This document shows, one piece after another, positions 9,376-13,469 of a stretch of 64,000 nucleotides of DNA. The notes below the pieces were generated by a model. The model ran no database searches. It was not told the DNA's origin and saw nothing but the letters and a program-made list of their open reading frames with translations. The position numbers and the translations under genes were made by a program. How positions within the stretch are numbered: the first letter of the stretch is position 1; each line of letters starts with the position of its first letter. The stretch is taken from positions 1-64,000 of the forward strand of contig NZ_FOPJ01000014.1 in NCBI RefSeq assembly GCF_900113445.1, given 5' to 3'. This stretch comes from Corynebacterium spheniscorum (GTDB lineage: Bacteria > Actinomycetota > Actinomycetes > Mycobacteriales > Mycobacteriaceae).

Positions 9376-11019
9376 TTAGCCGCGCGCCATATCCACGAAA
9401 CGCGAGAAGCGCAGCTGATGGGCCACGGTCACGGTATCGATCGGGCCACCACGGTGCTTAGCCAAAATAATGTCAGCTTCACCACCACGCGGATCATCCT
9501 TATTCTGCGAATCAGGGCGATAGAGCAACATCACCATATCCGCATCCTGTTCCAGCGAACCTGATTCACGCAAGTCCGCTAGCTGCGGGCGCTTATCGGT
9601 ACGCGATTCCGGGCCACGGTTCAGCTGCGAAATGGCCACCACCGGAACATCCAATTCCTTCGCCAATAGCTTGAGTTGGCGGGAGAATTCCGAGACTTCC
9701 TGCTGACGCGATTCCACACGCTTACCGGAGCTCATCAGCTGCAGGTAGTCCACCACCACCATTTGCAGGTCATGCTTTTGTTTCAACCGGCGCGCCTTAG
9801 AGCGAATCTCCATCATGGTCAGGTTCGAAGAATCATCAATATAGAGCGGCGCATCAGCGATTTGCCCCACGCGGTTAGCCAGCTTCGCCCACGCCTCATC
9901 GGTCATCCGGCCGGAACGCATATCAGATAGCGGGATCTCTGTTTCCGCGGAGAGCAAACGCATGACGATCTCAGATTTGCTCATTTCCAAGGAGAAGATC
10001 ACCGAGGCTTTATTGTTCTTAATGGAACAGCTACGCATAAAGTCCAAGGCCAAGGTGGATTTACCCACACCAGGGCGCGCAGCCACAATGATCATCTGGC
10101 CGCCATGCAAACCATTGGTCACATTGTCTAGGTCAATAAACCCCGTGGGGATACCGGCCGCTAAACCACCATGGGTTGCGATCTCATCAATCTCATCCAT
10201 GGTGGGCTGCAAAATATCGGCTAACACCGCATAGTCTTCGGTGACATTGCGTTGAGCAATGGCGAAGACTTCTTGTTGGGCCATATCCAACACGGTGTCC
10301 GCATCGGCAGCTTCCACGCCTTCAAAGCCCAATTGTGCAATCCGGGTGCCGGCATTAACAATGCGGCGCAAAGTGGCTTGCTCAGCGATGATTTCGGCAT
10401 GGTAGCGGGCATTGGCTGCGGTGGTGACTGATTCCAGCAGCTCCATGAGGTACATGTGCCCGCCGACGCGCTCAAGTTCTTTATTTTGCTTAAGGCGGTC
10501 AGCCACAATCACCGCGTCGATCTTCTTATTTTCACTAAAAAGATCAATGATGGCTTTGTAGATCAGTTGATGCCGTGGCTCATAGAAATCTTCTGGGGTC
10601 AGGGTGTCGAGGACATCCATCACCACCCCTGGGCTAAGAATCATGGCACCCAGCACACCGGTTTCGGCATGCGAGTCATGCGGCATACGGCGATAGTCGC
10701 CGCTACTTCCTTGGTTCATTCCGTAGTTCCCCCTGTCTTGCCGGAATTTTTTGCGACCCGAGCTGCCGTGGCTCGAGCTTCCCCCATATCCACCATCGCC
10801 ATAGCGGTTTAAAGCCGCATCATCGAAGCTGCCATAGCCCGGCCCACCATAGGGTGTAGGGCTAGCAGCTCCTAGGACAGAGAAGTCCGGTGCGGCAGCT
10901 AGCCCATCAAGGTCTGGTGTATAGATCTCTTCGGGCACTGGTGCTTCTGGAGCTTCTGGCGGAGGTGGCACCTGCGCATTGTCATCAAAGCTGGGTGAAG
11001 GATTCTCGGATGCACTCAT
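9376..11019 (-). CDS. dnaB: Replicative DNA helicase DnaB
   Basis: The DnaB N-terminal domain starts near residue 112 (HDSHAETGVLGAMILSPG). The RecA-like motor carries Walker A ARPGVGKSTLA near residue 315, Walker B VVVDYLQLM near 425 and a conserved SQLNRGPESR loop. The hexamer unwinds DNA at the replication fork. At 547 residues it is longer than typical DnaB because of a 110-residue Gly/Ser/Tyr-rich, disordered-looking N-terminal extension. No intein is present. It is the last gene of the rpsF-ssb-rplI-dnaB block, but 724 bases separate it from rplI, and a DnaA-box cluster fills much of that gap. Confidence 0.96.
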   Translation of the reverse strand: MSASENPSPSFDDNAQVPPPPEAPEAPVPEEIYTPDLDGLAAAPDFSVLGAASPTPYGGPGYGSFDDAALNRYGDGGYGGSSSHGSSGRKKFRQDRGNYGMNQGSSGDYRRMPHDSHAETGVLGAMILSPGVVMDVLDTLTPEDFYEPRHQLIYKAIIDLFSENKKIDAVIVADRLKQNKELERVGGHMYLMELLESVTTAANARYHAEIIAEQATLRRIVNAGTRIAQLGFEGVEAADADTVLDMAQQEVFAIAQRNVTEDYAVLADILQPTMDEIDEIATHGGLAAGIPTGFIDLDNVTNGLHGGQMIIVAARPGVGKSTLALDFMRSCSIKNNKASVIFSLEMSKSEIVMRLLSAETEIPLSDMRSGRMTDEAWAKLANRVGQIADAPLYIDDSSNLTMMEIRSKARRLKQKHDLQMVVVDYLQLMSSGKRVESRQQEVSEFSRQLKLLAKELDVPVVAISQLNRGPESRTDKRPQLADLRESGSLEQDADMVMLLYRPDSQNKDDPRGGEADIILAKHRGGPIDTVTVAHQLRFSRFVDMARG

Positions 11020-11181: not shown

Positions 11182-11493
11182 TTATCCACAACCGCCTGTG
11201 GATACGTTCGGTAGCGTAAAAGGAGTTATCCCCAGATTTCTCAGAATATGGGAGGCCGCTTGTGGATAACCTGTGGATAACTCTTGGCATCTGCCGGCAG
11301 TGATCATCGTTATCGCAGGTCAACTATGGTTTCTAGTTGTGGACAACTGGGGTTCCAATTGAGGATAACCCTTCTACGCTGCAGGTTTGCATTCGTGTTC
11401 CTTGGGAGCTAAGGGCCCTTTAAGGTTCTGAGCTGGCAGAATCTTCACATCAAGAAAAGGGGTTTCTCCACATTTTTGAAGAAGTTATCCACA
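11182..11493. promoter_or_regulatory. DnaA-box cluster upstream of dnaB
   Basis: Four exact TTATCCACA 9-mers occur within 312 bases: 11182-11190 (+), 11261-11269 (-), 11272-11280 (-) and 11485-11493 (+). One-mismatch forms lie at 11197-11205 (TGTGGATAC), 11226-11234 (TTATCCCCA) and 11338-11346 (TGTGGACAA), with weaker ones near 11310 and 11361. Such density resembles oriC, datA or DARS loci rather than chance. DnaA could here control dnaB transcription, titrate DnaA, or mark an accessory initiator site. Neither dnaA nor dnaN is nearby. Confidence 0.8.
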
Positions 11494-11609: not shown

Positions 11610-11743
11610 CGAATACACATGGGGTGTAGAGACACGTAGAGACCCTCACTTTCCGACTCAATGTGGAAAGAGGGGTCTCGCAGTGCGCTGTTGTCGTTGG
11701 GCTTCGCGTTATAAACGGAAGCCGTCGTGGCATTGGTGCCTAA

Positions 11744-12333: not shown

Positions 12334-12942
12334 TTAGAAGGGAGGCTCATCATTGGGGTCGAAACCGCCAGATTGAGGGGCGCTATTCCAGGGGTCCTGC
12401 TGGGCTTGGTCATTGGCGGAAGAACCGCCTCCGAAACCACCCTGCGGGGCACCGCCACCGAAGCCACCACCGAAGCCGCCCTGCGGCGCACCTTGAGGAG
12501 CACCGCCGCCGAACCCACCTTGGGGAGCACCCTGCGGGGCGTTGAATCCGCCACCACCTGGGCCGCCACCTTGGGGGGCATTGCGTTGGACATTGGCTGT
12601 GGCATTGCGCAAAGCGGGGCCGACTTCGTCGACTTCCACTTCGAATACGGTGCGCTTTTCGCCTTCGCGGGTCTCATAAGAGCGCTGGCGAAGACGGCCG
12701 GTAACAATAACGCGCATACCCTTGGTCAGGGATTCCTTGACATTTTCCGCTGCTTGGCGCCACACATTGCAGGTAAGGAAGAGGGCTTCGCCGTCTTCCC
12801 ACTGGTTAGTTTGGCTATTGAAACGCCGAGGCGTTGAAGCAACGCGGAAATTAGCTACTGCGATAGAAGACGCGGTGTAGCGCAATTCCGGGTCAGCAAC
12901 GAGGTTGCCGACGATCGTAATGTTGGTATCTCCCTGTGCCAT
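12334..12942 (-). CDS. ssb: Single-stranded DNA-binding protein
   Basis: The OB-fold domain covers residues 1-115 ([23 protein letters not shown], then [14 protein letters not shown]). A Gly/Gln/Pro-rich linker with repeated PQGGFGGG-type units runs to the acidic tip DPNDEPPF, which recruits replication and repair partners. The tetramer coats single-stranded DNA at forks. The ribosome site GGAAGG lies 8 bases upstream. Its place between rpsF and rplI is conserved. The linker repeats make the DNA here locally repetitive. Confidence 0.97.
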
Positions 12943-13145: not shown

Positions 13146-13433
13146 TTAGCTGTCGGTGCGCAGGACCTTGGTGCGCAGAATGTTGTCATTCAGGTTCAGC
13201 AGACGGTCGAATTCCTGCACGGTGGCAGGTTCGCAGTCCAGATTGACGACGACGTAGACGCCTTCGTCCTTCTTGTTGATCGGGTACGCAAGCTTGCGCT
13301 TACCCCACACATCAACCTTTTCGACAGTGCCATTTTCTTTACGGACAACTTCGAGGAACTTGTCCAGGGACGGGGCTACAGTGCGTTCGTCCTGGGTAGG
13401 ATCCAGGATGATCATAATTTCGTAGTGACGCAC
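13146..13433 (-). CDS. rpsF: 30S ribosomal protein S6
   Basis: This is a 95-residue S6 ([11 protein letters not shown], then a [14 protein letters not shown] block) that binds S18 on the 30S platform. An in-frame GTGATG lies further upstream, but it touches the AGGAGG ribosome site. The GTG at 13431-13433, 11 bases after AGGAGG, gives the family-typical start (V/M)RHYEI, so I chose it. It is the first gene of the rpsF-ssb-rplI set. A hairpin about 40 bases upstream could be a leader control element. Confidence 0.95.
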
Positions 13434-13469
13434 GGACCTCATCACCTCCTGTGGTCTAGTAGTAGTTCG

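Follow-up and report, generated by a model that had tools for sequence, protein, structure and literature searches.

DnaA is known to bind upstream of dnaB in mycobacteria. The available part of PMC7738170 gives five regions that are bound by M. tuberculosis DnaA in vitro, i.e. oriC, rpmH-dnaA, Rv0010c-Rv0011c, Rv0057 upstream of dnaB and Rv3843c-RVnc0040, and the homologues of these five are bound by DnaA in M. smegmatis as seen by ChIP-seq. The Rv0010c-Rv0011c region contains a palindrome of two DnaA-like boxes. The M. tuberculosis DnaA mutant I282T binds more weakly upstream of dnaB and expression of dnaB is lower, and the same source cites a Caulobacter precedent for DnaA binding upstream of dnaB (PMC7738170). 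In many bacteria, including mycobacteria, no regulators of DnaA and no helicase loaders have been identified, according to the accessible portion of PMC5720831. The cluster of DnaA boxes described here bears on how initiation is limited in actinobacteria.

The Rv0057 region presumably lies between rplI and dnaB. The window (the whole stretch of 64 kb of Corynebacterium spheniscorum DNA that was analysed) contains a cluster of DnaA boxes in the same place relative to dnaB as that region (PMC7738170). Judged from its sequence, this is best explained as the corynebacterial counterpart of the mycobacterial DnaA-binding region upstream of dnaB.

Motif scanning found nine DnaA boxes in 312 bp between rplI and dnaB, four of them exact and five with one mismatch, lying 171-474 bp upstream of the dnaB start (Table 1). 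The preliminary description of this DNA had noted four exact boxes in both orientations, two of them 11 bases apart; these were recovered at 11182 (+), 11261 (-), 11272 (-) and 11485 (+), and the two minus-strand boxes start 11 bases apart. Its at least three one-mismatch boxes become five on counting. Pfam confirmed both rplI and dnaB as the flanking genes, and dnaA, said not to be near, is on a different contig (C15). A genome-wide count of the 9-mer, suggested at the same time, gave 66 exact boxes in 2.455 Mb compared with 8 for the reversed pattern; the four exact boxes of the dnaB cluster equal the four found at dnaA-dnaN.

Table 1. Features of the rplI-dnaB interval and neighbouring genes, numbered from the first nucleotide of the window.
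Feature	Position	Strand	Basis and remarks
dnaB, replicative helicase	9376-11019	-	Pfam DnaB, DnaB_C
Exact DnaA box TTATCCACA, closest to dnaB	11182-11190	+	motif scan; head-on pair with 11197-11205
One-mismatch DnaA box GTATCCACA	11197-11205	-	motif scan; 15 bp from box at 11182
One-mismatch DnaA box TTATCCCCA	11226-11234	+	motif scan
Exact DnaA box, tandem pair no. 2	11261-11269	-	motif scan
Exact DnaA box, tandem pair no. 1	11272-11280	-	motif scan; 11 bp spacing
Second conserved motif, TGACCTGC on dnaB strand (GCAGGTCA on +)	11315-11322	-	42 bp before tandem pair, T to T
One-mismatch DnaA box TTGTCCACA	11338-11346	-	motif scan
One-mismatch DnaA box TTATCCTCA	11360-11368	-	motif scan
ACCTGC, core of second motif	11381-11386	-	motif scan
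One-mismatch DnaA box TTCTCCACA	11464-11472	+	motif scan
Exact DnaA box TTATCCACA, closest to rplI	11485-11493	+	motif scan
Stem-loop directly 3′ of rplI	11632-11686	-	predicted -26.1 kcal/mol; no T run
rplI, ribosomal protein L9	11744-12196	-	Pfam
ssb	12334-12942	-	Pfam SSB
rpsF	13146-13445	-	Pfam Ribosomal_S6

Such a cluster might arise by chance or base composition, given the general excess of the 9-mer in the C. spheniscorum genome and nothing further. However, the window has 26 boxes with at most one mismatch, compared with 8.7 expected over its whole 64 kb and a maximum of 15 in 100 shuffles, and nine of the 26 are inside the 312 bp. A Poisson estimate from the genome-wide box density predicts 6e-6 occurrences per genome of at least four exact boxes in 312 bp. 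These shuffles, the reversed and scrambled motifs, the flanks and the conservation discussed below all contradict this explanation, which we regard as refuted and to which we assign virtually no probability.

The genes rpsF, ssb, rplI and dnaB are all on the minus strand. The stem-loop that follows rplI is absent from the output of the terminator scan, and since it has no T run we can only guess that it acts as a terminator or attenuator. Downstream of the last box, 20 of 52 loci have a -10-like hexamer, where 12.2 are expected, and a sigma-70 promoter scan gave no match. With so weak an excess and an empty scan, we do not claim a conserved promoter for dnaB at this place.

Conservation was analysed in the dnaB regions of 60 Corynebacterium genomes, a single unselected draw that excluded C. 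spheniscorum itself. The interval scored was that from rplI to dnaB, or 1 kb upstream of dnaB where rplI was not found. These intervals contain 147 exact boxes and 298 with at most one mismatch in 88,757 bp, while the flanks in the same genomes have 16 and 152 respectively in 1,002,080 bp; 40 scrambled 9-mers gave a mean of 0.1 and a maximum of two exact matches in the intervals. At least one exact box is present in 54 of the 60. Taking three or more boxes within 450 bp as the threshold, a cluster is found in 55 genomes, and the remaining five (L073, L100, L108, L118 and L126) fall below it; L126 is G046, in which a contig end truncates the locus.

Outside the genus, the 600 bp preceding dnaB were searched for TTRTCCACA, allowing one mismatch. 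In the family (29 other genera, one genome each) the enrichment is 29-fold, with at least two boxes in 24 loci and none lacking a box. It is 19-fold in the class (31 loci; at least two boxes in 20, no box in six), 20-fold in named Actinomycetota other than Corynebacterium (43 loci; at least two in 20, none in 15) and 4.9-fold outside the phylum (23 loci; at least two in six, none in six). M. fortunisiensis and Klenkia terrae are among those with no boxes before dnaB. The preliminary description had made its claim depend on conservation in relatives, and it withstood this comparison, the boxes being enriched before dnaB in genus, family and class. We note that eight Bacteroidota loci (L273, L280, L284, L285, L287, L288, L291 and L296) have a single DnaA-like box 61-62 bp before the called dnaB start, which may reflect the relatedness of these loci.

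The arrangement of the boxes is also conserved. Read towards dnaB, most clusters in the genus have one or more minus boxes followed by plus boxes that include a tandem pair 11 bp apart, and in most the closing minus box follows a plus box at a distance of 14-15 bp, or of about 68 or 79 bp. The order in C. spheniscorum is the same. The commonest same-strand spacing in the genus is 11 bp, and the 14-15 bp spacing of a plus then a minus box in the dnaB sense occurs 24 times in the genus intervals. Same-strand spacings have a period of 10.75-11 bp. After similar intervals had been dropped (leaving 46 of 60 for the genus and 58 of 60 for family plus class, with some relatedness remaining), the length of the phasing vector was 0.71 for the genus, compared with 0.07 (maximum 0.20) for random placement. 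The corresponding values were 0.86 against 0.11 (maximum 0.26) for the family and 0.74 against 0.15 (maximum 0.56) for the class; note that four periods were tried for the observed values, of which the best is given, whereas the null refers to one period. Spacings phased in this way make it probable that DnaA assembles at the cluster in an ordered fashion, along one side of the helix.

A second motif accompanies the boxes. Once the boxes are masked, the clusters show a 13.8-fold enrichment of TGACCTGC, with 34 copies in 25 of 56. Over 106 pairs in the genus, the distance from RCCTGC to a plus box is mostly 39-41 or 50-51 bp (11 pairs at 40 bp, eight at 39, eight at 50 and five at 51). In the family RCCTGC lies 40 bp before a plus box in 7 of 21 pairs, and the class has four pairs in all, with zero at 40 bp. 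In many species there is an inverted repeat whose left arm is TGACCTGC and whose arms are 13 or 16 bp apart. Across 61 whole genomes, exact inverted repeats of TGACCTGC with 6-18 bp between the arms were located 11 times, and five of these fall by their coordinates in the dnaB cluster (G001, G010, G011, G036 and G051). Allowing up to three mismatches, the repeat is present in 28 of 61 intervals, where mononucleotide shuffles gave a mean of 2.25 and a maximum of six. As a stricter control, 1,466 flanking fragments of 700 bp were scanned and 205 contained it, corresponding to about 8.5 expected in 61. The second arm is weak in C. spheniscorum. The sequence TGTCAAA is present as one copy in each of 22 of the 56 clusters (52-fold). 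A general partnership of TGACCTGC with DnaA clusters was considered and rejected; just 2 of 30 dnaA-side clusters carry the motif, which is therefore mainly a feature of the dnaB cluster. The dnaA-dnaN region of C. spheniscorum has one GACCTGCGG.

Rearranged genomes provide a natural separation of the cluster from its neighbours. Positions of rplI and dnaB were obtained in 141 genomes of the genus, each gene being matched in 139. Boxes were inspected in 89, i.e. the 60 unselected genomes and 29 picked for having rplI and dnaB far apart, so that proportions are drawn only from the 60. At the split loci the gene calls come from a greedy longest-ORF list, in which wrong-strand ORFs (L079, L098, L358 and L382) were replaced using protein matches. 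A cluster was found in 84 of the 89. It adjoins dnaB in 63, lies behind a same-strand GH15 (trehalase-like) gene in 17, and is cut off from dnaB in four. In the unselected draw 48 of 55 clusters are within 900 bp of dnaB and five more are behind the GH15 gene, which could be read through together with dnaB. In 29 of the 89 (14 of the 60 plus 15 selected) the cluster stays at dnaB while inserted genes separate it from rplI. For two of them, G232 and G279, this distance is uncertain, as rplI falls beyond a contig end or on a separate contig. One genome (G058) has no cluster at either rplI or dnaB.

In the four decoupled genomes the cluster is beside rplI. An opposite-strand alpha-amylase gene separates it from dnaB in G045 and G245; their DnaB proteins are 76% identical, and this arrangement is therefore old if it arose once. 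In G011 the intervening genes are of the TatD and ThiF families on the opposite strand, and in G227 an inversion has left rplI and the cluster together with dnaB 10 kb away. All four clusters retain 5-7 boxes, 2-4 of them exact. Within 700 bp of dnaB there are no boxes in G045 and G011, and one one-mismatch box in each of G245 and G227. Convergent genes flank the cluster in G045, G011 and G227. Its retention suggests that part of its role is independent of dnaB. In Nesterenkonia (L256, L258 and L259) the boxes are some 2.8-3.0 kb upstream of dnaB, and in L256 and L258 a hydrolase-like gene on the opposite strand intervenes; this is possibly a further decoupling outside the genus.

The dnaB cluster is one of several near the origin. 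In all 30 relatives picked for few contigs, dnaA is separated from dnaB by 34-183 kb, or 1.1-7.8% of the chromosome, with a median of 85 kb. Clusters of exact boxes flank dnaA in C. spheniscorum, with three at C15:55486-55641 and four at C15:58171-58361. A further cluster at C26:10199-10406 (L032:7200-7444), between crgA and a rhomboid gene, has five exact and three one-mismatch boxes and is denser than that at dnaB; we read the genes beyond it as probably ppiA and pknB-like. Rv0011c we take to be crgA. The crgA-side cluster is the positional counterpart of the Rv0010c-Rv0011c DnaA site of M. tuberculosis that is linked to isoniazid tolerance. It is also present in G019 and G005, complete chromosomes that were searched for three or more exact boxes within 350 bp. 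G019 has clusters on both sides of dnaA, in the dnaB interval and by crgA. G005 has them upstream of dnaA, in the dnaB interval and on the crgA side, with just two exact boxes downstream of dnaA. In G005 the cluster is beside the rhomboid gene about 2 kb from crgA. Most of 30 relatives had no cluster in a search of 1.5 kb around crgA, but this span was too narrow, as the G005 distance indicates, and the loci were not oriented along crgA, so that this does not show absence.

G019 also contains five isolated inverted pairs of TGTGGATAA and TTATCCACA (L392-L396), all spaced by 16 bp and three of them in similar flanking sequence. In C. spheniscorum such pairs (L034-L037) are spaced by 16, 27 or 28 bp, and one is near a DUF222/HNH-like gene; they look like a dispersed repeat. 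The ends of contigs C20 (end of L034) and C12 (start of L037) share a sequence of about 80 bp in opposite orientation by a DnaA box, which is either a repeat or an assembly break.

The preliminary description had offered several roles, of which a regulatory or DnaA-handling one is credible for so conserved a cluster, while an accessory initiation site is unlikely. We favour a DnaA-responsive control region for dnaB, since 80 of the 84 clusters stay with the dnaB transcription unit and in view of the mycobacterial mutant. The full reading, in which an ordered DnaA complex with a probable second protein controls dnaB and also withholds DnaA near the origin, seems to us about evenly balanced between right and wrong. 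DnaA would occupy the nine boxes in ordered form along one helix face, and a second protein would probably sit on the TGACCTGC motif. Depending on how much DnaA there is, or on its nucleotide state, the complex would tune transcription of dnaB, either alone or, in some species, behind the GH15 gene. From the position of the boxes 171-474 bp upstream of the dnaB start it would most likely act as an activator; the direction of the effect is drawn by analogy with one mutant in another genus. The complex would also withhold DnaA close to the origin. Against dnaB control stand the four decoupled genomes, the lack of a demonstrable conserved promoter, and the five of 60 genomes that fall below the cluster threshold. 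The same genomes would fit a site that handles DnaA independently of dnaB, by titration or by changing its nucleotide state in the manner of E. coli datA/DARS, with the location at dnaB incidental. The E. coli datA and DARS2 loci carry sites for partner proteins, and datA/DARS change the nucleotide state of DnaA. The second motif, about 40-42 bp from the boxes, recalls this trait of a partner-protein site at fixed distance, and the 5-7 boxes (2-4 exact) kept in G045, G245, G011 and G227, the convergent genes around three of these clusters and the 34-183 kb between dnaB and dnaA in all 30 genomes are further points in its favour. Yet most rearrangements keep the cluster with dnaB, and I282T links binding to dnaB expression in M. 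tuberculosis (PMC7738170). With 4 of the 66 exact genomic boxes, the cluster would by number be a small share of any titration. Moreover, only four genomes are decoupled, at least two of them probably by one shared event, and in G011 and G227 the separation may be too recent for decay. We consider DnaA handling independent of dnaB a serious alternative, though the less likely one; control of dnaB and DnaA handling may also both be true together. Somewhat more speculative is a composite actinobacterial switch of phased boxes and a partner-protein inverted repeat that would reset or store DnaA near the origin and mostly also drive dnaB. Its first task would be to act on DnaA, which is why the cluster would survive separation from dnaB, and it would then be the missing actinobacterial counterpart of datA or DARS.

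Bound DnaA might instead bridge the cluster to oriC or other origin-proximal clusters, as a site of DNA-DNA contact or chromosome organization. Ordered, phased boxes would suit this, as would the three further origin-near clusters in C. spheniscorum and the same set in two complete relatives, but no sequence feature demands contact and we think it improbable. An accessory replication origin is still more improbable, and was rejected on GC skew and A+T content. It could draw on the equal number of exact boxes at dnaA-dnaN (four each) and on DnaB being the protein that an origin must load. Against it, the cumulative GC skew of the window has its extremes at 29.4 and 64 kb, with only a small local dip near 11.2 kb; the lowest 40-bp GC content is 0.325 at the cluster compared with 0.275 at dnaA-dnaN, which is a weak test, and dnaA is within 34-183 kb of dnaB in all 30 relatives with few contigs. 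DnaA-trio-like repeats were found neither at the cluster nor at dnaA-dnaN, and so are uninformative on origin function. The control region for dnaB remains the reading that we prefer. The cluster probably links the supply of helicase or of DnaA to the replication cycle. As the site is compact and conserved, has a fixed geometry and a candidate partner motif, and is naturally separated from dnaB in some species, regulation of dnaB and control of DnaA can be told apart experimentally, with C. glutamicum as a harmless laboratory organism.

The cluster is real and conserved, and was largely anticipated by the mycobacterial work; what is new is how its boxes are laid out, the second motif and the genomes in which it is decoupled from dnaB. 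The preliminary description knew of no such locus. This holds for corynebacteria, where we recognized no description of the dnaB cluster in the literature searched (mostly non-subscription papers), but binding of DnaA in front of dnaB has already been reported for both M. tuberculosis and M. smegmatis (available part of PMC7738170). Nor did that literature yield an earlier description of the helical phasing of boxes, of a second motif about 41 bp before the tandem boxes, or of the four decoupled genomes.

With the mycobacterial region the cluster shares its rplI-dnaB location, several lineage-conserved boxes and membership of a set with oriC, dnaA and crgA. The order rplI, boxes, dnaB of C. 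spheniscorum recurs in M. aurum (L232). Four of the five mycobacterial regions have positional counterparts in C. spheniscorum; for Rv3843c-RVnc0040 none with three or more exact boxes was found. By the same scoring mycobacterial boxes are fewer and weaker, with two in M. aurum, one in M. wolinskyi and zero in M. fortunisiensis. The Rv0057 region similarly belongs to a small set of clusters with oriC, the dnaA upstream region and the crgA-side site, although DnaA binding is measured in mycobacteria and predicted in C. spheniscorum (PMC7738170). B. subtilis also has several DnaA-box clusters outside oriC that may hold DnaA; it differs in that joint loss of six advances initiation while single losses matter little, as reported in the accessible part of PMC5295017. 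The datA, DARS1 and DARS2 loci of E. coli resemble the cluster, in a comparison of arrangement only, as non-coding conserved groups of boxes at conserved distance from oriC (available parts of PMC12371093 and PMC5010248). The excess of boxes near the E. coli origin is likewise comparable, such boxes being copied early, which suits titration; that excess is broad and regional, whereas the boxes in Corynebacterium form compact clusters of fixed layout (PMC12371093, part available).
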